64,000 nucleotides of DNA from Ginsengibacter hankyongi. GTDB taxonomy: Bacteria; Bacteroidota; Bacteroidia; Chitinophagales; Chitinophagaceae. Made by a program: the position numbers and the translations under genes. Shown piece by piece: positions 8,775-19,728 of the stretch. The stretch covers positions 496,001 through 560,000 of the forward strand of contig NZ_VYQF01000001.1 in NCBI RefSeq assembly GCF_008710285.1, written 5' to 3'. The notes below the pieces were generated by a model that was given only the letters and a program-made list of their open reading frames with translations, was not told where the DNA came from and searched no databases. The first letter of the stretch is position 1. Every line of letters begins with the position of its first letter.

Positions 8775-9563
8775 TTAGAACGCCGCCTGGGTTGCCGCGG
8801 AAATTTTATTGCTCTTTTTATCCTGCAGAAACAAAACAACCGACATGTTTTGCAGGTCAGGCGAAGATGGCATATCAATGGTCGCCATATTATTTCCATT
8901 ATCAACCTTATTAATCGTTTGAAAATTTATGACAACGTTGTAATTGGTAAGGGTAACTCCCCCATTCTCGCCGGCTTTTATATCGGTGGTGGTTTTCTTC
9001 TCAACAAGAGCAACATTGAGCGTTGCATTTTTTATTTTTCCCGATGCATCAAAATTTACCAATGCCTTTCCATTTTCAACCTTAACTTCTTTAACCATTA
9101 ACGTTGCTTCCGGCTGCTGTTCAACAATTTTATTAATGGCATTGGAAATTTTATTGGCATCACTTCCGATCATTTCGGTTTGCCCGTTAACCACCAGCTG
9201 GGGTGTGTAAACATCTGCATGTAACGCCGACGCATAGTTGTATTGTCTTTTCGTATATTCTTTTGAACTGAAAGGATCTTTCCAGCCCAAACGATCCCAA
9301 TAATCAACATGAAAAGAAAGAACAATCACATTTTCTTTGGATGCATAAGTTCCCAAAAGCCGGTCTGCCGGCGGGCAACTGGAGCACCCCTGCGAAGTAA
9401 ATAATTCCAGCACCGCGACATTTTTGCTACCCGGTAATGAACCAGGCGTCTTGATATTTGCAACATCCTTTTTATCTTTTGCGGCAGTAGACGGGGTACA
9501 AAAATCCAATGCAACGAGGGGAACAAGCAGGAATATTAAATACCGGAACTTTTTCATAAACAT
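8775..9563 (-). CDS. DUF1223 family thioredoxin-fold protein
   Basis: A 262-residue exported protein with a hydrophobic N-terminus (FRYLIFLLVPLVALDF). The DUF1223 core follows at about residue 50: ELFTSQGCSSCPPADRLL with a CxxC, then VDYWDRLGWKDPFSS, TKRQYNYA and TPQLVVNGQ, the last being the cis-Pro loop. A Met at residue 3 gives an equally good start (9557). The fold suggests a periplasmic thiol-active protein, but no redox substrate is known for the family. The C-terminal 90 residues form a beta domain that ends with FLQDKKSNKISAA. It converges with the DUF6263 gene on a shared terminator. Confidence 0.9.
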   Translation of the reverse strand: MFMKKFRYLIFLLVPLVALDFCTPSTAAKDKKDVANIKTPGSLPGSKNVAVLELFTSQGCSSCPPADRLLGTYASKENVIVLSFHVDYWDRLGWKDPFSSKEYTKRQYNYASALHADVYTPQLVVNGQTEMIGSDANKISNAINKIVEQQPEATLMVKEVKVENGKALVNFDASGKIKNATLNVALVEKKTTTDIKAGENGGVTLTNYNVVINFQTINKVDNGNNMATIDMPSSPDLQNMSVVLFLQDKKSNKISAATQAAF

Positions 9564-9704
9564 TTATTTATTAAAAATACGTGACATGCATCCGAATGGT
9601 TTGAAATTAAAATGACTTTAACTTTTATGTAATTTTTCTTGTCAACATGGGGTTGCAGGGGGCGATTTAACTTTAAGCATATCAATCTATAGTGGCGTTA
9701 GTAG

Positions 9705-9712
9705 TATTTTTG
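9705..9712 (+). promoter_or_regulatory. -7-like element directly before a GTG start
   Basis: TATTTTTG matches TAnnTTTG and lies 4 nt before the GTG at 9717. If used, the message would be nearly leaderless. A chance match is also possible, as no clear -33 motif is seen. Confidence 0.3.
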
Positions 9713-9716
9713 CGGC

Positions 9717-11549
9717 GTGAAAAAATTTTACCCATATATTGCTTATTTCGGCTTCTGGGTTTTCTATTTTATTATATCAAGAGTGCTTTTCCTGGTTTAT
9801 CATCATGCACTTTCAGGAGGCCTGGCCGCCTCAGAAATTTTAAAGGTTTTTCTTTATGGCTCCAGGATGGATTTGTCGTTTGCATCTTACATCAGCATTT
9901 TCCCTTTTATTTTATTTTTTGTAAGAACTGCATTTGTTACCATTAATATTGAAAAGTTAATAAAAATTTATACAATTATTGTCATTGTATTCATTTCATT
10001 TGTAACTACTGCCGACCTGCAATTATATACCGCTTGGGGCTACAGGATGGACGCCACGCCGCTCCAGTATTTTAGATCGCCCAAAGAAATGGGCGCTACG
10101 GTTTCCTCGTCGCCGTTGCTGTTGTTATTAACCATATTTATCATGCTTTCCGTATTTTTTATATGGTTCTATAAAAGATTTATTGGGCCCTGCATTCGCA
10201 TTAAACCGGGCAAATTTTCAATCCTTAATTTATCGATCGCGTTATTTCTTATAGCCTTTTTATTTGTACCCATTCGCGGGGGAATTCAAAAGATCCCCAT
10301 GAATCAAAGTGATGTATACTTTTCTGAAAAATTATTTGCCGACCACGCTGCCTTAAACTTACCGTGGAACATTGCCTTTTCTATCCTTAATCAAAATAAT
10401 AAAGAGAATCCTTTTGATTATTTTCCTGCAAAAAAATCCGGCGAAATAGTAAATGAATTATATAATACAGGCCCGATAAAAATCCCTTCTATCTTATCTG
10501 TAAAAAAGCCCAACATTATTTTTATCATCATGGAAAGCTATACGGCAAAGTTTGTAGGTTCGCTGGGCGGCGATCCCGGCGTAACGCCGAACCTGGATAA
10601 GATAGCGGCGGATGGATTGTTATTCACCAACATTTATGCAGCCGGAGACCGAAGCGAAAAAGGCCAGGTGGCAGTGTTAAGCGGCTATCCCAACCAGGCT
10701 TTAACGTCAATTATAAAAACGCCTACAAAAACGCAACAGCTTCCTTCAATAACCACCGCGTTAGAAGCTGCAGGCTATCATACCAGTTACACTTATGGCG
10801 GCGAGCTAGAATTTGCCAACATTAAATCATACCTGGTAAATACAGGGTTCAATAAGCTTATCAGCAAGTATGATTTCCCGGCTGCTGAAAGAACCACTTC
10901 CTGGGGCGTACACGACCAGTATGTTTTTAATCGTTTTTATAATGATATAAAACAGGAACAACAACCTTTTTTTGCAACCCTGTTTACATTGAGCAGTCAC
11001 GAACCTTATGATGTGCCAATGGCACCCAGGTTTAAGGGTGCTGATGAAACAACCAAATTCAGGAACTCTGTCGCCTATACTGATAGCTGCGTTGGTGTGT
11101 TTATAAACCGTTTAAAAAATGATTCGTTGTGGCAAAATACACTTGTTGTTTTTGTGGCAGATCATGGTCATCCTTTGCCGGGATATGATAGAAATGATCT
11201 TCCGTCGAAATTTCATATTCCCCTGATTTTTTCAGGCGGGGCTTTAAAAGTAAAGGGTGTAGTATCCACGATTGGCTCCCAGACAGATATTGTGAAAACA
11301 GTGTTAAATCAGCTTGATATCCCCTCCGGTAAATTTACCTGGAGCAAAGACCTTTTAGATTCATCGGCACGGTCTTTTGCCTTTTATAGTTTCAATGATG
11401 GCTTTGGATTTGTAACTCCGGCAGGGATTGTAACAATGGATAATATTGCCAGAAAAATTATTTTTGAAAAGGGTAAAGTCGATTCCGCCGAAGTGAATAA
11501 CGGGAAAGCATACATGCAGTTATCTTACCAGGATTTCTTAAACAGGTAG
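9717..11549 (+). CDS. LtaS-like sulfatase-family membrane enzyme (phosphoglycerol transferase-like)
   Basis: A 610-residue protein: five N-terminal membrane helices (to about residue 190) and a large C-terminal alkaline phosphatase/sulfatase-fold domain. Visible active-site elements are IIMESYTAKF (metal-binding Glu), DRSEKGQVAVLSG where Ser/Thr normally serves as nucleophile, SSHEPYDVP (His) and ADHGHPLPG (metal Asp-His). The start is GTG at 9717; the next in-frame ATG lies beyond the first helices. The length is typical. Relatives transfer phosphoglycerol or phosphoethanolamine to envelope glycans. In Bacteroidota, which lack lipoteichoic acid, the acceptor is unknown. Its 3' end overlaps the convergent MFS gene by 12 bp. 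Confidence 0.9.
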   Translation: MKKFYPYIAYFGFWVFYFIISRVLFLVYHHALSGGLAASEILKVFLYGSRMDLSFASYISIFPFILFFVRTAFVTINIEKLIKIYTIIVIVFISFVTTADLQLYTAWGYRMDATPLQYFRSPKEMGATVSSSPLLLLLTIFIMLSVFFIWFYKRFIGPCIRIKPGKFSILNLSIALFLIAFLFVPIRGGIQKIPMNQSDVYFSEKLFADHAALNLPWNIAFSILNQNNKENPFDYFPAKKSGEIVNELYNTGPIKIPSILSVKKPNIIFIIMESYTAKFVGSLGGDPGVTPNLDKIAADGLLFTNIYAAGDRSEKGQVAVLSGYPNQALTSIIKTPTKTQQLPSITTALEAAGYHTSYTYGGELEFANIKSYLVNTGFNKLISKYDFPAAERTTSWGVHDQYVFNRFYNDIKQEQQPFFATLFTLSSHEPYDVPMAPRFKGADETTKFRNSVAYTDSCVGVFINRLKNDSLWQNTLVVFVADHGHPLPGYDRNDLPSKFHIPLIFSGGALKVKGVVSTIGSQTDIVKTVLNQLDIPSGKFTWSKDLLDSSARSFAFYSFNDGFGFVTPAGIVTMDNIARKIIFEKGKVDSAEVNNGKAYMQLSYQDFLNR

Positions 11550-12752
11550 AACAACTTCCGGCTGTAAGCGCCTGTAAAAAATGGCAAGCAAAAAACCAAT
11601 AAAACCGATAATATACCAAAGCATCTTATAACCCGCATGCTCCGCAACCAATGCGCCGGCATATGGCCCCACGGTTTGCGCACAAGCCCACGCTACGCTG
11701 TATAATGCAGCATACTGGCCACGATTATTTTGTACACTTCTCCCGATCCAGTAAGCATTCATAAAAGGCATAGCCAGTATTTCTCCAAACGTTAAAATCA
11801 CCATAGATAACAATGCGATCATCCCAAAATTTGATCCCGGTAAATTCAGTAATAAAAAAGCCAGCGAAATGAGCAATACTCCGGCTGATATATAGTGAAG
11901 AGAAGAACGTTTACCTTCTAATGAAAAAATGGTGATCATCTCAAATACTGCGATGATAAGGCCGTTAAACGCCATTATCATTCCAATAAACAAAACACTC
12001 AAATGAAAATTTTCTTTAAAGAAAACAGGGATAGTGGTAAACAACTGGAAGAAGCAAAGTGCAAATAAAAAAACCAAAAAAACAAAAGTAAGGTAAGTAC
12101 GATCGCGGTAAGCAGAAGCCCTGATTACCTCTTTTTCCCGGCTTTTTATCTCCGTAGCCGGATTGCGTTTAGGCGACAGCGTTATATACAGTAAACAGGC
12201 AGCCAGCAGGTTGGTAATGCCATCAACCCAAAATAATAAATTGTAATTAAAGCTGGCAATTATTCCGCCCATAGCGCCGCCAATAGCCCACCCGAAGTTT
12301 ATCGCGAGCCTGTTAAGCGAATAGGATCTTGTTCTGTTTTGGTCTTTACTGTAATGCGCAATGGCAACGGTATTGGCCGGCCTGAAAGATTCATTCAATA
12401 TGGCCAATATAAAAGTGCAAATACAAATGCCGATATAAGAATGCATCTGCCCCAGGATAATAAACATCGTTCCACCCAATATGAGTGCGAACAGTTGAAC
12501 ATAATAATACCCAACGCTGTCTACCAGTTTCCCCCCGCTCAAGGAACCAACAATAGCGCCCAAACCAAAAAGGCTCATAACAAAACCAGCTTTGCCAATG
12601 GTTACTCCATAGTGCTGTGTAAGATACATGGTCATGAAAGGAATAACCATTGTGCCGCTCCTGTTTACAACCATTACCAGCGAAAGCCACCAGGTGCCTG
12701 GTGAAAGTCCGCCGTAAGCTTTTTTATAAAGAGAAATGGCTTTACCTATCAT
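11538..12752 (-). CDS. MFS transporter
   Basis: A 404-residue protein with about 12 membrane helices. The MFS loop 2-3 signature appears as GGKLVDSVGYY (about residues 73-83), and the second half repeats the fold from about residue 215. The N-terminal half has TWWLSLVMVVNRSGTMVIPFM, as in drug-exporter-like MFS proteins of Bacteroidota. The substrate cannot be told. The gene ends inside the tail of the LtaS-like gene (12-bp convergent overlap) and starts 56 bp from the palindromic repeat array on its upstream side. Confidence 0.9.
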   Translation of the reverse strand: MIGKAISLYKKAYGGLSPGTWWLSLVMVVNRSGTMVIPFMTMYLTQHYGVTIGKAGFVMSLFGLGAIVGSLSGGKLVDSVGYYYVQLFALILGGTMFIILGQMHSYIGICICTFILAILNESFRPANTVAIAHYSKDQNRTRSYSLNRLAINFGWAIGGAMGGIIASFNYNLLFWVDGITNLLAACLLYITLSPKRNPATEIKSREKEVIRASAYRDRTYLTFVFLVFLFALCFFQLFTTIPVFFKENFHLSVLFIGMIMAFNGLIIAVFEMITIFSLEGKRSSLHYISAGVLLISLAFLLLNLPGSNFGMIALLSMVILTFGEILAMPFMNAYWIGRSVQNNRGQYAALYSVAWACAQTVGPYAGALVAEHAGYKMLWYIIGFIGFLLAIFYRRLQPEVVLPV

Positions 12753-13040
12753 ACGCTGACAAATATATAGCAGATACGGATGCCAACGCTATTAGCAATA
12801 GGATGTAATACCACAAAGGCACTAGGATGGCAAAGCAATTCCTTAGTGTGCTTCGTGGCTTCGTGGTATAAGGTATTTTTTATTTATATACCACAAAGGA
12901 ACTAAGTGCACAAAGCCGTTCCTTAGTGTGCTTCGTGGCTTCATGGTATAAGGTATTTTTTATTTATATACCACAAAGACCTTTAGGTTAAAATAGTTCT
13001 TTGATAATTGGAAATAGCAGAAAAGAATGATAAATTTTGT

Positions 13041-13190
13041 GGAAGGGAAGTGGGGTGAACTTTACAAAGACATAGACTCTCAGATCTATTTTGTGTATTA
13101 GTCCCCACTCCCCAGCCACGGTTGCATTAGGCCTATTTAGAATAGTAAGTCGATGAGACTAATTAAAGGTCTTAGACTTTGCAACTTTTT
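13041..13190 (+). ncRNA. Predicted bridge RNA of the IS110 element
   Basis: Two stem-loops precede the recombinase gene. Target loop: GGGAAGTGGGG (13045-13055) pairs with CCCCACTCCCC (13103-13113), 10 of 11 positions. Inside is ACAAAGAC (13064-13071), identical to the target left half at 12973-12980, and TTTGTGT (13090-13096), which can pair with the right target ACGCTAA with one mismatch and one wobble. Donor loop: GTTGCA/TGCAAC (13121-13126, 13180-13185) encloses TTAGAATA (13137-13144), identical to the element's right end at 14228-14235. It also encloses TAAAGGT (13164-13170), the complement of the left end ACCTTTA at 12979-12985. The exact RNA ends are not known. Confidence 0.75.
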
Positions 13191-13213
13191 ATTCAAGTCT
13201 TAAAAACAAAATT

Positions 13214-14203
13214 ATGAAAGTTCAGCAAATTATTGGAGCCGATCTCTCCAAAAAAACTATTGACCTGGTCAGCCATTTACACAACAATCATCTGCAAATT
13301 GAAAATTGCCTCTTTGGTTTTAAGCAAATGTTGCGATGGCTCGTGCAACAGAAGATTGATCTTTGTGAAACCATGATTGTAATGGAACATACCGGTCTTT
13401 ATAGCTTTTGTTTCGAAGACTTTTTGCACCAGCATCATATTGTTTTTACAAAGGTTAATGCACTTGCTATCAAACGCTCTATGGGATTAGTCCGGGGCAA
13501 AAACGATAAGACAGATGCTGCAAGAATTGCTGCTTATGGCTATGAAAAGAAAGACAATCTCAAAGCTGATGAACCTGTTAACCAGGAGATGAAACGCCTG
13601 CAAATGCTGCATTCTACCCGGGAAAGGCTAGTAAAACAAAGATCCGGATTAATTTGTGCGCTCAAAGAGTACAAATACATCGGTATCCCCGAAAAAGACA
13701 TCATCCTGAAATCGCAATTGCAAATGATCAAAGCCTTTGGTAAACAAATTTACAAGCTCGAAGCTGAAATCAAAACTGTGATTGAAAAACAACCATCACT
13801 AAATCAAAACTTCTACTTGCTGCAAAGTATTAAAGGAGTAGGCGAAGTGCTTTCCATGGCAACCATCATCAAAACAAATAACTTTACCCGTTTTGCTGAT
13901 GTAAGAAAGTTCGCCTGTTTCTGCGGAACCGCTCCCTTTGAACATTCATCCGGCAGCAGCATAAAAAGTAAAACAAGAGTAAGCCACCTTGCAGATAAAC
14001 AAATGAAAACATTGCTTGACCTGTCTGCAAAAACTGCTATCCAATATGACAAAGAACTAAGAGATTTTTATATCAGACGATTAGAAATGGGCAAATCAAA
14101 AATGAGCACCATCAATATCGTAAGAAATAAAATTCTGTACAGAATGTTCGCTGTTGTAAAACGACAAACACCATTTATTGAAAACTACTTACAAGCTGCA
14201 TAA
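13214..14203 (+). CDS. IS110-family transposase/recombinase
   Basis: A 329-residue recombinase. The N-terminal RuvC-like DEDD domain shows IGADLSKKTIDLV (first Asp), MIVMEHTGLY (Glu) and GKNDKTDAARIA (Asp pair). The C-terminal Transposase_20 domain has SIKGVGEVLSMATII, RKFACFCGTAPFEHSSGSS with the expected catalytic Ser, and a closing KMSTINIVRNKILYRMF. The length is normal and the frame intact, so it may be active. These enzymes use an RNA encoded in the element's non-coding end to pair donor and target. Such an RNA is predicted directly upstream (13041-13190). Confidence 0.96.
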   Translation: MKVQQIIGADLSKKTIDLVSHLHNNHLQIENCLFGFKQMLRWLVQQKIDLCETMIVMEHTGLYSFCFEDFLHQHHIVFTKVNALAIKRSMGLVRGKNDKTDAARIAAYGYEKKDNLKADEPVNQEMKRLQMLHSTRERLVKQRSGLICALKEYKYIGIPEKDIILKSQLQMIKAFGKQIYKLEAEIKTVIEKQPSLNQNFYLLQSIKGVGEVLSMATIIKTNNFTRFADVRKFACFCGTAPFEHSSGSSIKSKTRVSHLADKQMKTLLDLSAKTAIQYDKELRDFYIRRLEMGKSKMSTINIVRNKILYRMFAVVKRQTPFIENYLQAA

Positions 14204-14393
14204 AATATTTTTGGCAGTTTGAAAACCTTAGAATACGCTAAGGGCACAAAGCAGTTCCTTAATGTGCTTCGTACCTTCGTGGTATAAGGAATTTTTAGGT
14301 TGGCCCCACAAAGACGCCAGGATCACGAAGCAAGTCCTTAGTGTGTTTCGTGCTTTGTGGGAAAAGGTATTGCATAATGATCTTTCCTTAATA

Positions 14394-15097
14394 CTACTGC
14401 AATTCCTGTTGTATCAATGGCGCTAAAAGCTTACTCCATTTTTGATATTGGTATGCAGAAGGATGCAGGCCATCACCGGCAATTAATGAGAGTTTATATT
14501 TTGCTTCACGGGAAACAGGTGTAATATCAACGTAATGTACTCCCGCATTTAAGGAGATGCTTTTATTAACCGCATTAAACGCATCAATTTCTTTTCCAAT
14601 CTTTACGGTATCCAGGCCCGAGGCAAATGGCGTTACGCTATAATCAGGAATAGAAAGAACGAATACATGATTCTTTTTATTAGCGGCATAGGAAATTGCC
14701 CGGTTCAATAATTCAATAAATTCTGTTTATATTCTTCAATACTTTCGTGCCGGTACTGGTTGTTTACACCTATAAGAAGTGATACGACGGAATAATTTTT
14801 TCGCGGGGTATTATTATCTAAGGCATTCAAAAGATCAGCGGTTGTCCAGCCGGTAACAGCAATTATATCCGGATCATTGATCTTAATATTTTGCAAACGC
14901 AACCGGTTAGCTGTTTGCACAGGAAATCTATCGCCCACGGGAACAGATTCTCCTATGGTATAAGAATCTCCAAGGGCCAGATAGGTATTATGAGTTGTAT
15001 CCATGGCTGTTCCGGGATTTACAGGAAAGCTATCACTTTTTTTAGCGCACGATATTAATGATAAAAAAATTACTGATAAGGCAACTAACTTTTTCAT
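14394..15097 (-). pseudogene. SGNH/GDSL hydrolase lipoprotein, interrupted by one frameshift
   Basis: Two overlapping frames together encode one SGNH hydrolase. The upstream frame (14705-15097) has a lipobox (VIFLSLISC), block I LALGDSYTIG, and LLIGVNNQYR. The downstream frame (14394-14708) has VFVLSIPDYSVTPFA and block V AGDGLHPSAYQY with catalytic Asp and His. Loss of one A in the AAA run at about 14726-14728 (minus strand TATAAACAG) would explain the shift, because the other frame continues naturally as TEFIELLNRAISYAANKK. The gene is either recently inactivated or carries a homopolymer sequencing error. An intact protein would be about 235 residues, normal for the family. Confidence 0.85.
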
Positions 15098-15160
15098 AAT
15101 AACATTTACACGTCTAAATATTATATACGAAATATAACCATTGCAGGATGAACAGCCATA

Positions 15161-15196
15161 AATATAAAGCGCCGGACACTGCCGGCGCTTTATATT
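15161..15196. terminator. Strong bidirectional terminator
   Basis: A perfect 15-bp inverted repeat, AATATAAAGCGCCGG (15161-15175) and its complement (15182-15196), around a 6-nt loop. It lies 21 nt downstream of the stop of the phosphorylase-like gene (minus strand) and upstream of the SGNH gene. Confidence 0.9.
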
Positions 15197-15216
15197 TCCT
15201 ATATCAGTTGAGGAAA

Positions 15217-16869
15217 CTATTTGTACAATATCTCGTAATATTCGTTCGCCATCCGGTTACTGTCAAACTGCACCTGCACATCTCTCATCCCGTTCTTTAC
15301 AATCTGGCGCCAGGTATCAAAATCGTCATAATAGAGGGGCAGTATTTCCTTCTCGAGGATCTCGTACAATTTATTCAAATCATATTCGTCCTGCTCCTGA
15401 ACATGCATGTTCATATAATCGGCAGGAGGTACCACAAAACCATTATTGCCATTATTTATAAATTCGCATATCCATCCATCGTTAGTACTAAGGTTTACAG
15501 CACCATTCATCGCTGCAGTCATACCGCTTGTGCCGCTAGCTTCCCTTGGCACTCTCGGATTATTCAGCCATATATCAGCCCCTTGTTTAAGCCGCTTACT
15601 AAGTGTAAGCTCGTAACCGGTACATACGGCCACATTTTTATATTGCTTACTTATATTTACCAGGTGATTGAAATCTGTAATTGCCGGGTAATCCAGCGGG
15701 TACGGCTTTCCTGCCCATATTATCTGCACCGGGTATTTAGAATTATTTAACAGGGCCTCAAAGCGTTTATGATCTCTCGTTAGTAACTCTGCCCTTTTGT
15801 AACCGGCAAACCTTCTCGCCCAAACAATGGTAAGTACGCCGGGATCCATCAATTTCCCTGTTTGATCAGCCACAATGTCAAATGCCCTGTTTTTCAGATA
15901 CCTCTTCCTGTCATCAAACACATTATCATTTCCATCTTCCTTGGCCTTGTACAATTGTTTATCGGCCCAGTAGCGCCAGTTCTGCGCATTGGTAATCGAT
16001 TTTATTTCGCAAATACCTTCATACTTTTTCCACATTTGCCGGCTTACTTCACCATGCAGCTGCGAAACCCCGTTTGCAAGATGTGCAAACCGCAAAGCTG
16101 CCAGCGAATGATTAAAAAGATCATCGGTCATCCCGGTTAATTCTCTTACCTCGTTAAGTGGCATGCCATAGAAGTAACTCATTTTTTCACACAGAAAAAT
16201 ATCATGTTTTTCATTACCTGCTTCTTCGGGTGTATGCGTGGTAAACACCAGCCTCTTTTGTACTTCTTCTTTGCTGCCAAATTTTTTGAATAAATAAAAT
16301 ACCGAGCTTACCCCATGTGCCTCATTAAGATGATACAAATCAGGATTGAAATTGATTTCATCAAGCAGCTTGGCTCCCCCGATACCCAATAAAATAAACT
16401 GGGCAATTTTTGTGGCGAGATTGCCATCGTACAGCCGGTTAGTTATTGTTTGGGATACATAATCATTTTCCGGCACATCAGTGCTGAGCAGAAACAACGG
16501 CGCTGTATTAAACGTCTTTGGATTTAAATACCAAACCTTCACCCAAACCGGATGATCGTGTATCGGTATCTGGAACATAATTCCTGTGTCTTCCAGGAAG
16601 TTATAAATCTTATTAATCCAGACAACATTTAAAGTCTGGTCTGCATTTCTTGCCTGGTCGTAATATCCTTCTTTCCAGAGTATGCCAATTCCAATTAAGT
16701 TTTGCCGTAGCTCATAGGCGCTTCTCAAATGAGACCCGGATAGAAAACCCAATCCTCCGCTGTATATTTTTAAAGGCTGATGAATGGCGAACTCCATGGA
16801 GAAGTAAGCAACTTTTTTTGAATATCGTTCTTCGGTTTCATAGGGGATACTGTAATTTTCAAAACTCAT
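15217..16869 (-). CDS. Alpha-glucan phosphorylase-like protein (short family)
   Basis: A 550-residue GT-B fold protein of the short alpha-glucan phosphorylase type. Recognisable stretches are SMEFAIHQPLKIYSGGLG near the N-terminus, LNEAHGVSSVF, FTTHTPEEAGNEKHD, TIVWARRFAGYKRAELL (sugar-phosphate binding) and NNPRVPREASGTSGMTAAMNG. Classical phosphorylases have Lys for pyridoxal phosphate in EASGT.NMK; here that position is Thr (SGMT). The cofactor or reaction may therefore differ, for example glycosyl transfer rather than phosphorolysis. The role is most likely glycogen or maltodextrin metabolism. It stands alone and ends in a strong terminator; the divergent mntR gene is 317 bp upstream. Confidence 0.88.
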   Translation of the reverse strand: MSFENYSIPYETEERYSKKVAYFSMEFAIHQPLKIYSGGLGFLSGSHLRSAYELRQNLIGIGILWKEGYYDQARNADQTLNVVWINKIYNFLEDTGIMFQIPIHDHPVWVKVWYLNPKTFNTAPLFLLSTDVPENDYVSQTITNRLYDGNLATKIAQFILLGIGGAKLLDEINFNPDLYHLNEAHGVSSVFYLFKKFGSKEEVQKRLVFTTHTPEEAGNEKHDIFLCEKMSYFYGMPLNEVRELTGMTDDLFNHSLAALRFAHLANGVSQLHGEVSRQMWKKYEGICEIKSITNAQNWRYWADKQLYKAKEDGNDNVFDDRKRYLKNRAFDIVADQTGKLMDPGVLTIVWARRFAGYKRAELLTRDHKRFEALLNNSKYPVQIIWAGKPYPLDYPAITDFNHLVNISKQYKNVAVCTGYELTLSKRLKQGADIWLNNPRVPREASGTSGMTAAMNGAVNLSTNDGWICEFINNGNNGFVVPPADYMNMHVQEQDEYDLNKLYEILEKEILPLYYDDFDTWRQIVKNGMRDVQVQFDSNRMANEYYEILYK

Positions 16870-17154
16870 AATTTAATCAGATCGAATTTATTGAGGGCGC
16901 AATATAAAAGGAAATTTCAACATATTGAGTGTTTCCTGTCAATGAATGCGTTGTTTCTGGTCTTTAATAGTAACGTTAAACAGTAATAAATGTTTTACCA
17001 GGAAAAATAAATTTCAAAATAAAAGGCCCGAATAAATTTTCCGCTTTCCCTATGGTTCCTGCCTTTCAGCCCGTATCGCTCAATACTCCTATTTCATTCC
17101 CGAGCCAGGACTATTTGCCGGTAAATTTTTAAAATGGAGTTATCAAATTTAATT

Positions 17155-17170
17155 TTTAGATTTGTCTAAA
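17155..17170 (+). promoter_or_regulatory. MntR/DtxR-type operator overlapping the -7 element of mntR
   Basis: TTTAGATTTGTCTAAA is a 16-bp inverted repeat (6-bp perfect arms) like the operators of Mn/Fe-responsive DtxR-family repressors. The promoter element TAGATTTG (17157-17164; consensus TAnnTTTG) lies inside it, so bound repressor would cover the -7 site. The mntR ATG is 16 nt downstream. Confidence 0.7.
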
Positions 17171-17186
17171 TATTTTTTTAAAGAGT

Positions 17187-17846
17187 ATGAAATTATCTCA
17201 GAGCGAGGAAAACTATATAAAAAGTATTTATAATCTTCAGTCGAAAACAGAGAAAGTAAATACCAACTCACTGGCGGCTTTTCTTGACACCAGTGCTGCA
17301 TCTATTACCGATATGCTTAAGAAATTAAAATCAAAAAATCTGCTGGAATATAAAAAGTATTACGGATTCCGGTTAAACGGCGCAGGCAATAAACAGGCAC
17401 TTAAAATAATAAGAAGGCATCGCCTGTGGGAATTTTTTTTAGTATCGAAGCTGGATATGGAATGGGAAAAGGTTCATGACATTGCCGAAGAACTCGAGCA
17501 TGTAAGCAGTGCTGAATTAATAGAAAAGCTTGACCGCTACCTGGGCAATCCGAAGATAGATCCTCATGGCGATCCGATTCCGGATGAAAAGGGTGTAATG
17601 CCGGTTCTTAAACAAATTGCGCTGAAAGATTTACCCCATAAAAGAAATGCAGTTATAAGTTCTGTGAGCAGTCAAACTCCGCAAATGATGGAGATGTTGA
17701 ATCATTATGGAATAAAAATCGGCTCGCCGATAAAAGTGTTGAAGTCTTTTGTATTTGACGGATCGCTACAGGTAAAAATTGCAAAACAACCGGAATGCAT
17801 CATCAGCGGATTGGCTGCGCAAAATATTTTTGTGTATGATACTTGA
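17187..17846 (+). CDS. mntR: DtxR/MntR-family metal-dependent transcriptional regulator
   Basis: A 219-residue protein with three parts. An N-terminal winged helix (LSQSEENYIKSIYNLQ, with recognition helix about SAASITDMLKKL) is followed by a metal-binding dimerisation domain (RRHRLWEFFLVSKL, WEKVHDIAEELEHVSS, and NPKIDPHGDPIP). A C-terminal FeoA/SH3-like domain starts at about residue 150. The His and Glu ligands of the family are in place. It lies directly upstream of an Nramp gene with an 11-bp overlap, and its operator-like site covers its own promoter. The expected role is metal-dependent repression of Mn (or Fe) uptake. Mn as the co-repressor is inferred from the partner gene. Confidence 0.92.
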   Translation: MKLSQSEENYIKSIYNLQSKTEKVNTNSLAAFLDTSAASITDMLKKLKSKNLLEYKKYYGFRLNGAGNKQALKIIRRHRLWEFFLVSKLDMEWEKVHDIAEELEHVSSAELIEKLDRYLGNPKIDPHGDPIPDEKGVMPVLKQIALKDLPHKRNAVISSVSSQTPQMMEMLNHYGIKIGSPIKVLKSFVFDGSLQVKIAKQPECIISGLAAQNIFVYDT

Positions 17847-19728
17847 CAAGAAACTATATGATAATTCTTTGAGTGAAGTGCATGGAAGCATAGACACCAA
17901 AAAACAGCTGGGCTGGAAAAAAATATTTTCATTTCTTGGCCCGGCTTACCTTATAAGTGTGGGCTATATGGATCCGGGAAACTGGGCCACCGACCTGCAA
18001 GGCGGAAGCAAATTCGGATATTCGCTTATCTGGGTGCTGCTGATGAGCAACCTCATGGCTTTGTTGCTGCAGGGATTGTCGGCACGGCTTGGCATTGTGA
18101 GAGGAAGGGATCTTGCACAGGCTAACAGGGAAGCATACCCTAAAATAGTTAATTTCACATTATATATTCTTGCAGAAATTGCAATAGCCGCCTGTGACCT
18201 TGCAGAAGTTTTGGGAATGGCTATTGGTATTCAATTACTCACAGGTTTACCGCTCGTATGGGGCGTTTGCCTTACCGTTTTGGATACTTTTTTATTGCTC
18301 TATCTTCAAAAGCTGGGCATGCGGAAAATGGAAATATTTATCATTACGCTTGTTGCGATAATAGCCGGCGCTTTCCTGGTACAAATGATAATCGCCAGGC
18401 CTGACCTGGGTGAAATTGCTACCGGCTTTGTGCCGCATTTACCCGGCAGCGAAGCCTTGTATATCGCTATAGGAATTATCGGCGCTACGGTAATGCCGCA
18501 TAATCTTTACCTGCATTCTGCTCTTGTGCAAACGAGGAAAATTGAACGAACACCGGAAGGAATTGAACAAGCCATTAAGTATAACAGGATTGACAGTGCA
18601 GTTGCATTAAATATGGCTTTTTTTGTAAACGCTGCTATTCTTATTGTTGCAGCAACGGTATTTTTCAAAACGGGGAATTCGAAGGTGGCAGAAATACGCG
18701 AAGCTCACAGGCTGCTTCCCAATTTCTTAGGGAATCTTGCTCCAATGTTATTTGCAGTGGCCCTTATAGCCGCGGGGCAAAGCTCAACTATTACAGGCAC
18801 GCTTGCGGGCCAGATAGTGATGGAAGGCTACCTGAGCTTAAGAATTAACCCGTGGATAAGAAGATTACTAACAAGGCTACTCGCCATTATTCCGGCATTG
18901 ATTGTTATAATAATTTATGGTGATCAGCAGGTAGATTCTTTACTGGTGCTAAGCCAGGTTATCCTTAGCCTGCAGCTTGGCTTTGCCATCATTCCTTTAA
19001 TACATTTCGTAAGCGACAAATCAAAAATGGGAAATTTTGTTATTAAGTTTCCAACAAAAATAGCAGCGTGGCTTATTGCAACCGTACTTATCTGGCTGAA
19101 TTTTCAAATGCTCATCAGCCAGTCTGTGCCGGTGTTTGAAGGAAGCAGTATGCTGCCAAAAATTATAATTGCAGCAAGTGCTTTATTTTTTTCCGGCTTA
19201 CTTTTATATATACTTTTTGAGCCGGCAATAACCCGGAGAAAGATGGCCGCATCAATTAAAATGCATCCTGAAATGGAAAACATTGTTTTGGATATTCCTT
19301 TGTATAATAAAATTGCAATTGCGCTGGATTTTTCTGAGAACGACAAGAAACTAATCAGTTATGCGATAGGCCAGGGAAATCAAGGTTCACAATATATCCT
19401 GGTGCATATAGTTGAAAGCGCTTCCGCAAAATTATGGGGAAGCCAAAGCGATGACTATGAAACACGGAAGGACCAGGCACAGTTAGATGATTATGTTAAC
19501 CAATTAAAACAAAAAGGTTTTAATGCAACGAGTCTTCTTGGATATAGAAACCGTGCGAAGGAGATTGTAAGGCTCGTAAAAGAAAGCCATGCGGATATGC
19601 TGGTGGTGGGCGCACATGGCCACACCGGTATTAAAGATATAATTTACGGCGAAACAGTTAACTCTGTAAGGCACGAACTTCGGATACCTATATTAATGGT
19701 AAATATAAAAGAGGAACCAGCCTCCTGA
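17836..19728 (+). CDS. mntH: Nramp-family Mn2+/Fe2+ transporter with C-terminal UspA domain
   Basis: A protein of about 630 residues. I take the ATG at 17836 (MILDKKLYDN), which overlaps the end of mntR; longer frames need an upstream TTG. The first 420 residues have about 11 helices with the Nramp metal site MDPGNW (helix 1) and ATVMPHNLYLHSALVQTR (helix 6), so proton-coupled Mn/Fe uptake is expected. From about residue 490 a universal stress protein domain follows: IAIALDFSENDKK, LVHIVESASA, and VVGAHGHTGIKDIIYGETVNSV. In the nucleotide loop the final G-S/T reads G-E-T, so ATP binding is uncertain. Nramp-Usp fusions are known in Bacteroidota. Translation is probably coupled to mntR. Confidence 0.93.
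   Translation: MILDKKLYDNSLSEVHGSIDTKKQLGWKKIFSFLGPAYLISVGYMDPGNWATDLQGGSKFGYSLIWVLLMSNLMALLLQGLSARLGIVRGRDLAQANREAYPKIVNFTLYILAEIAIAACDLAEVLGMAIGIQLLTGLPLVWGVCLTVLDTFLLLYLQKLGMRKMEIFIITLVAIIAGAFLVQMIIARPDLGEIATGFVPHLPGSEALYIAIGIIGATVMPHNLYLHSALVQTRKIERTPEGIEQAIKYNRIDSAVALNMAFFVNAAILIVAATVFFKTGNSKVAEIREAHRLLPNFLGNLAPMLFAVALIAAGQSSTITGTLAGQIVMEGYLSLRINPWIRRLLTRLLAIIPALIVIIIYGDQQVDSLLVLSQVILSLQLGFAIIPLIHFVSDKSKMGNFVIKFPTKIAAWLIATVLIWLNFQMLISQSVPVFEGSSMLPKIIIAASALFFSGLLLYILFEPAITRRKMAASIKMHPEMENIVLDIPLYNKIAIALDFSENDKKLISYAIGQGNQGSQYILVHIVESASAKLWGSQSDDYETRKDQAQLDDYVNQLKQKGFNATSLLGYRNRAKEIVRLVKESHADMLVVGAHGHTGIKDIIYGETVNSVRHELRIPILMVNIKEEPAS

Follow-up and report, generated by a model that had tools for sequence, protein, structure and literature searches.

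Positions 12,981–14,236 of the window, the 64,000-nucleotide stretch of DNA analysed here, very probably (we put this at about 95%) hold an IS110-group insertion sequence, the left end of which would encode a bridge RNA with a target-binding and a donor-binding loop. Judged by sequence comparison, the element adds a new and well-supported case to a mechanism known from other bacteria. Guide RNAs of IS110 elements have already been published (PMC11208160, PMC11187229), with bridge RNAs described for IS621 and predicted for 85.7% of the catalogued IS110-group elements (PMC11208160). Among the titles and abstract openings listed in searches of the open-licence literature, none belonged to a study of bridge RNAs from Bacteroidota, which is weak evidence of absence. 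The coordinates of all features are compiled in Table 1.

Table 1. Features of the element, its insertion site and the related loci mentioned in the text (window positions unless a locus or contig is named).
Feature	Position	Strand	Remarks
IS110-group insertion sequence (very probable)	12,981–14,236	+	1,256 bp; delimited by excision, which restores an 80-nt repeat unit, and by ends kept in relatives
Two 80-bp repeat units	12,808–12,967	+	Adjoin the interrupted third unit
Interrupted third repeat unit	12,968–12,980 and 14,237–14,303	+	Host of the element
Fourth repeat unit	14,304–14,382	+	Diverged
Left target half and AC core (ACAAAGAC)	12,973–12,980	+	8 of 9 scored positions match the left target guide
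Right AC core copy and right target half (ACGCTAAGG)	14,235–14,243	+	Right target guide pairs at 5 of 6 target positions, G·U counted
Predicted bridge RNA, conserved structured part	13,039–13,185	+	Two loops; covariance model and covariation
Target-binding loop (predicted)	13,050–13,108	+	Closed by GTGGGG/CCCCAC; apical hairpin 13,072–13,089
Left target guide (LTG)	13,064–13,071	+	Identical to ACAAAGAC of 12,973–12,980
Right target guide (RTG), TTTGTGT	13,090–13,096	+	Final GT would pair with the AC core
GTATT, core partner and putative handshake bases	13,095–13,099	+	Can pair with donor end AATAC; changes along with the right end across 17 elements
Donor-binding loop (predicted)	13,121–13,185	+	
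Left donor guide (LDG), TTAGAATA	13,137–13,144	+	Identical to the right end of the element, 14,228–14,235
Right donor guide (RDG), TAAAGGT	13,164–13,170	+	Reverse complement of ACCTTTA, 12,979–12,985 (core and left end)
IS110 recombinase ORF	13,214–14,203	+	329 codons, 329 aa; intact
TTTG, candidate −33 box of the joined-end promoter	14,210–14,213	+	TTTG-N20-TACCTTTA across the join; imperfect
TAC, first part of candidate −7 box TAC/CTTTA	14,234–14,236	+	Remainder at 12,981–12,985
Second IS110 element of the same genome (L079)	Contig C7, near 75,689–76,849		Own bridge RNA; 40% protein identity to the window element
Tandem target loops, L034	1,740–1,801 and 1,848–1,910		
Tandem target loops, L035	1,729–1,790 and 1,848–1,910		
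Tandem target loops, L074	1,360–1,422 and 1,507–1,570		

Recombinase and Group Assignment

The protein encoded by the element matched PF01548 (DEDD_Tnp_IS110; 56.2 bits, cut-off 29) and PF02371 (Transposase_20; 67.4 bits, cut-off 21.3). Against the PDB, ISCro4 (9t56) was the best match by sequence with 71.1 bits, and IS621 scored 70.9 bits. Together, these matches support the IS110 identity proposed in a preliminary description of this DNA. In a hand count on the printed alignment, which assumes that the numbering of the PDB chain runs two ahead of that in the paper, D10, E58, D98, D101 and S246 face D11, E60, D102, D105 and S241, the residues named as catalytic for IS621 in PMC11208158. A scan of viral_contigs with peptide patterns of the recombinase gave zero matches; among plasmid records, 1,931 contained a recombinase match, every one below 60% identity.

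An element of the IS1111 group would share the recombinase superfamily, and would be expected to carry its guide RNA in the right end together with sub-terminal inverted repeats of 7–17 bp. However, the predicted RNA lies in the left end, which spans 233 bp (12,981–13,213, the leader length given earlier being correct), whereas the right end measures 33 bp, and no inverted pair of at least 12 nt joining both ends of the element was found. IS1111 membership therefore has next to no probability, and from its anatomy the element is assigned to the IS110 group.

Insertion Site and Element Ends

The insertion is clean and interrupts unit three of a tandem repeat with units of 80 bp. When the two parts of the interrupted unit were joined, an 80-nt unit was obtained, with 79% identity to unit one and 81% to unit two. 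Shifting the excised block left the score equal from −2 to +1, and the match dropped at two or more bases to the right or three or more to the left. The left end begins with CTTTAG, and the right end closes with TTAGAAT followed by the AC core. This left end is common to two relatives, L032 and L033 (71% and 70% protein identity, respectively), and to fragments of a multicopy element in another genome (G266).

The intergenic repeat itself has inverted CCACAAAG/CTTCGTGG halves (12,808–12,967 and 14,304–14,382), and one further cluster of similar copies is located on the same contig at about 1,338,937–1,339,207. In the second IS110 element of the genome (L079), the left guide matches its own flank at 9/9 positions, and nearly the same guide and target recur in L073, from another genome.

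Structure of the Predicted Bridge RNA

Alignment of the left ends revealed a conserved scaffold in which the guide positions stand out as short stretches of variable sequence. A covariance model was built from five close RNAs with guide-to-guide pairs excluded, and it found matches in 14 of 394 genomes of the family. At E ≤ 0.001, 25 of 45 loci were matched, the five training sequences included, and 20 were missed, most of which carry more distant IS110 genes. When loci were chosen from earlier matches, the same threshold was reached by 36 of 37, five again being training sequences.

In the alignment of 36 sequences, which was fitted to the model so that compensatory counts lean towards it, 31 of the 32 base pairs had both sides changed, and double-change cells amounted to 299 compared with a shuffled mean of 86. 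Paired cells made up 92.9%, compared with at most 51.3% when partners were slid, and five structure measures were reached by none of 500 shuffles. The five training sequences alone gave a modest signal, with double changes at four pairs. On these comparative data, the putative bridge RNA has a conserved two-loop fold. Support for this fold comes from them and not from single-sequence stability, which was only mildly unusual for the whole leader (z = −1.81, a stability reached by 9 of 200 shuffles) and gave z = −2.44 for the target loop alone (reached by 3 of 200).

The preliminary description had placed the two guide sets in separate hairpins, which is borne out, but closure by a single 10/11-bp helix is not, as the stems are interrupted. 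The target loop is closed by the helices GTGG (13,039–13,042/13,116–13,119) and GTGGGG (13,050–13,055/13,103–13,108), and the donor loop by GTTGC (13,121–13,125/13,181–13,185) plus inner helices. Rfam 15, applied at gathering scores to positions 9,000–19,000 of the window, gave no matches.

The LTG and RTG can in part pair with one another, as a target of optimal fit would resemble a direct repeat (ACAAAG-AC-ACAAA). Guide-to-guide pairs, present in the RNAalifold consensus for some sequences, were omitted from the model, since each was broken in at least one of the five sequences and they would be a consequence of this direct-repeat-like target.

Target Guides and Flanking Targets

Among the relatives, the target guides vary in step with the insertion site, a conclusion well supported by guide–flank comparisons in two sets of elements. 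The permutations used, here as well as for donor guides and handshake bases, ignore relatedness and therefore overstate the number of independent events. In 29 elements, each with a guide of its own, the LTG was aligned from the element boundary; it matched its own flank at 7.55 of nine positions and those of others at 3.64, the match being perfect in 14 elements; the own sum (219; permutation maximum, 147) was reached by none of 100,000 permutations. L034, L035 and L074 were dropped from this count (boundary pattern not found), and the weak fits of L059 (3/9), L072 (4/9) and L075 (3/9, with a boundary that looks misassigned) were kept in it. A free-position search covered 32 of the 36 elements, after removal of one lacking a left flank and three with repeated guides, and yielded a mean score of 8.16 for own and 4.65 for other flanks. 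A score of at least 8 was obtained for 21/32 own pairs versus 10/992 other pairs, and here, too, the own matches lay above all 100,000 permutations.

The RTG behaved similarly. Anchored in 17 elements, including L035, whose right end in this count was probably misassigned (a better one was found later), it formed 4.24 of six Watson–Crick pairs with its own target and 1.76 with those of others. None of 100,000 permutations reached the own sums (72 versus a permutation maximum of 57 or, with G·U allowed, 83 versus 72). The free-position test, performed on the 24 elements that have a complete ORF as well as a distinct guide, was weaker, yet still above all permutations (146 versus 138).

The second set was obtained by a class-wide search with the target-loop model, which matched 18 of 395 genomes; two opposite-strand matches were dropped, and an element was kept if its guide was distinct and its flank measured 60 nt or more. 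In the resulting 23 elements, the left guide scored 7.48 against own and 5.05 against other flanks (own sum, 172 versus 145). Scores of at least 8 were found in 12/23 own versus 23/506 other pairs, and at least 7 was reached by 15/23 own pairs; the remaining eight stood at 6 or lower, with L091, L098 and L110 scoring only 4.

A single genome, G266, harbours two guide types, each at its own kind of repeat. In type A, GCAAAGGATC or GCAAAGGAC precedes the left ends (L058, L062 and L063), and GCAAAG or GCTAAG comes after the right ends. In type B, CACGGGGC precedes the left end (L059, the 3/9 fit above), and AGGGAG or AGAGAG comes after the right ends. Left ends and right ends are on separate contigs, so right ends were attributed to types by their sequence, and their assignment is presumptive. 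In G626, one guide is found at four left ends, all preceded by CACAGAG plus four more bases. No identical guide was found at different targets; the copies sharing a guide (G266 type A and G626) occupy one kind of site.

The matches between leader and flanks might alternatively be copied target DNA or chance similarity in AT-rich sequence, with the protein recognising its site unaided and the leader serving as just a structured 5′ UTR or an attenuator. The location of the leader upstream of the gene, and the mild stability of its single-sequence fold (z = −1.81), would fit such an arrangement. However, own guide–flank matches exceed all permutations in two element sets, matches on one side of a loop run in a different direction from those on the other, as required for pairing, and the guides are variable segments amid a conserved scaffold, with the donor guides covarying too. 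We consider this alternative very unlikely. A bridge RNA with two guide sets, as previously proposed, is instead favoured by the compensatory change in both loops and by guides that follow targets and donor ends. All four guide, target and donor matches reported in the preliminary description were recovered at their positions, and two of the checks it had suggested, covariation in the fold of homologues and change of guides along with targets among relatives, gave positive results.

Donor Guides, Handshake Bases and Core

When the RDG was compared with the own left end in 28 elements, 10 of 50,000 permutations reached the own sum, and for the LDG and the own right end in 17 elements none of 50,000 did so. 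Because the ends vary little, the covariation of donor guides with element ends is weaker evidence than the target test. In 17 elements, the five bases from the core partner onward were complementary at 5/5 or 4/5 positions to the final five bases of the right end, the changes of which they followed (AATAC/GTATT, AATGC/GCATT, AAAAC/GTTTT; 0/50,000 permutations). This covariation corresponds to the handshake pairing described for IS621.

The window element has AC at both junctions, as claimed earlier, but this core is not an invariant of its relatives: L032 and L033 carry TC and GC, respectively, at the left junction and AC at the right. Ends that depart from AC, named in the preliminary description as counting against its reading, thus occur in part among relatives and not in the window element. 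In eight of the 17 elements with both ends read, the core dinucleotide differs between junctions, always in its first base. A left junction with the base of the target and a right junction with that of the donor is what is expected from a top-strand cut 3′ of the core. The boundary patterns required the core C, so its invariance there is no independent test; free-position searches do not use these patterns, and in the pattern-free second set about 17/23 elements, judged by eye, have a best match that abuts or just precedes a C and, after it, a left end resembling CTTT or CTTA. In IS621, the second core base is described as nearly invariant and the first as less conserved (PMC11208158).

Tandem Target Loops

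A search with the target-loop model detected a loop in 38 of 63 loci and two loops in four, corresponding to three elements (L034, L035 and L074), as L028 and L074 are one place, counted once, where the recombinase gene is interrupted. Among further loci, 28/28 had a loop with no second one on the same strand, and another 28 included four with a loop and none with two. About 540 bp of extra sequence separate the recombinase from the right end in L034 (2,991–3,533), and likewise in L035.

The tandem loops carry similar guides, most clearly in L034 and L035. Right ends were chosen by a motif, which in L035 occurs once more farther along, and pairing was assessed by eye. On this basis, the right end of L034 is followed by ACTAT, which is predicted by the upstream loop, the downstream loop predicting GCTAT. 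In L035, the right end is followed by TCTAT, again predicted by the upstream loop, and the downstream loop predicts GCTAT. In both elements, the first right-target base is thus fitted by the upstream loop and mismatched by the downstream one. We tentatively suggest, although we think it unlikely to hold, that the first core base is unconstrained in this clade of Bacteroidota, such that target and donor may differ there and leave unlike junction dinucleotides, and that a bridge RNA with tandem loops directed at almost identical sites can hold two readers covering alternative versions of one site.

Candidate Junction Promoter

Promoters of Bacteroidota are characterised by a TTTG −33 box and its spacing to the −7 box. 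When the ends of 16 elements were joined (L035 and L047 were omitted, their right ends being too short), a perfect TTTG-N20-TAnnTTTG was present in six, the −7 box either spanning the join or starting three bases inside the left end. The best-fit spacing was 20 at 13 of the 16 junctions (combined P of about 6e-12, with elements treated as independent though related). TAnnTTTG is reported as the sigma-A −7 box of a flavobacterium (PMC9723704), and junction promoters are known for the IS110 family (PMC11208160, PMC11187229). At the window element, the imperfect TTTG-N20-TACCTTTA was equalled by 5% of its own shuffles and is no more than suggestive of a Bacteroidota-type promoter formed by the joined ends.

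The left end also contains GTTCTTTGA (12,996–13,004), about 35 nt 5′ of the RNA, identical in three of five aligned close relatives and near-identical in the other two. As a −33 box, it was rejected by eye, since a −7-like box is not at a suitable distance from it.

Mobility in the Present Host

A genuine bridge-RNA element might be intact in sequence and nevertheless immobile in its host at present. A DNA search of the 5.5-Mb genome found a single copy, so any recent activity in this host would be hypothetical. The RTG pairs with ACGCTAA with one mismatch and one G·U pair, exactly as first described, and ACACAAA would fit better. Among the 15 genome matches to ACAAAGRCNCNAA, a number that does not stand out from the 13 of a reversed control pattern, the perfect target ACAAAGACACAAA was absent. 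The single copy, the imperfect guide and the weakly fitting junction promoter would all be in line with immobility, but the ORF is intact with its catalytic residues kept, the RNA stems still pair and the insertion is clean. We regard immobility as a serious possibility, somewhat below even odds.

Discussion

If the left end does encode a bridge RNA, the following course of events is suggested by IS621. The recombinase would excise the element in circular form, its ends meeting at the AC core, and the RNA would unite these joined ends with the ACAAAG-AC-GCTAA site in the intergenic repeat. The top strands would be cut just 3′ of the core and exchanged, the junction then being resolved. The joined ends may form a promoter that drives the RNA and the recombinase gene.

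In line with what is described for IS621 of E. coli (PMC11208160, PMC11208158), the element combines a DEDD/RuvC and Tnp recombinase with a left-end bridge RNA in which the target loop precedes the donor loop. Further shared traits are left guides directed to the bottom strand and right guides to the top strand, handshake bases after the RTG, a dinucleotide core with a strict second and a lax first base, and repeats as targets; a joined-end promoter may be another. In contrast, the core of IS621 is CT, while that of the window element is AC (NC among relatives); the predicted RNA has its own scaffold, the recombinase match reaches only 70.9 bits and the junction promoter, if real, would be of Bacteroidota type.

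The seekRNA elements ISEc21 and ISEc11 share abutted ends that create a promoter and insertion without duplication, and the non-coding region of ISEc21 is required for circle formation and transposition; however, both belong to another phylum, and ISEc11 is a member of the IS1111 group (PMC11187229). ISCro4, the top match among solved structures, is yet distant in sequence and was compared by protein sequence alone.

Taken as a further example of the known mechanism, the element would extend RNA-guided IS110 recombination to a clade of Bacteroidota in which guides can be read for several dozen elements. In the relatives, handshake pairing and a less stringent first core base both find support in naturally occurring sequences, and guide–target pairs with a non-CT core become available for testing as programmable recombinases.
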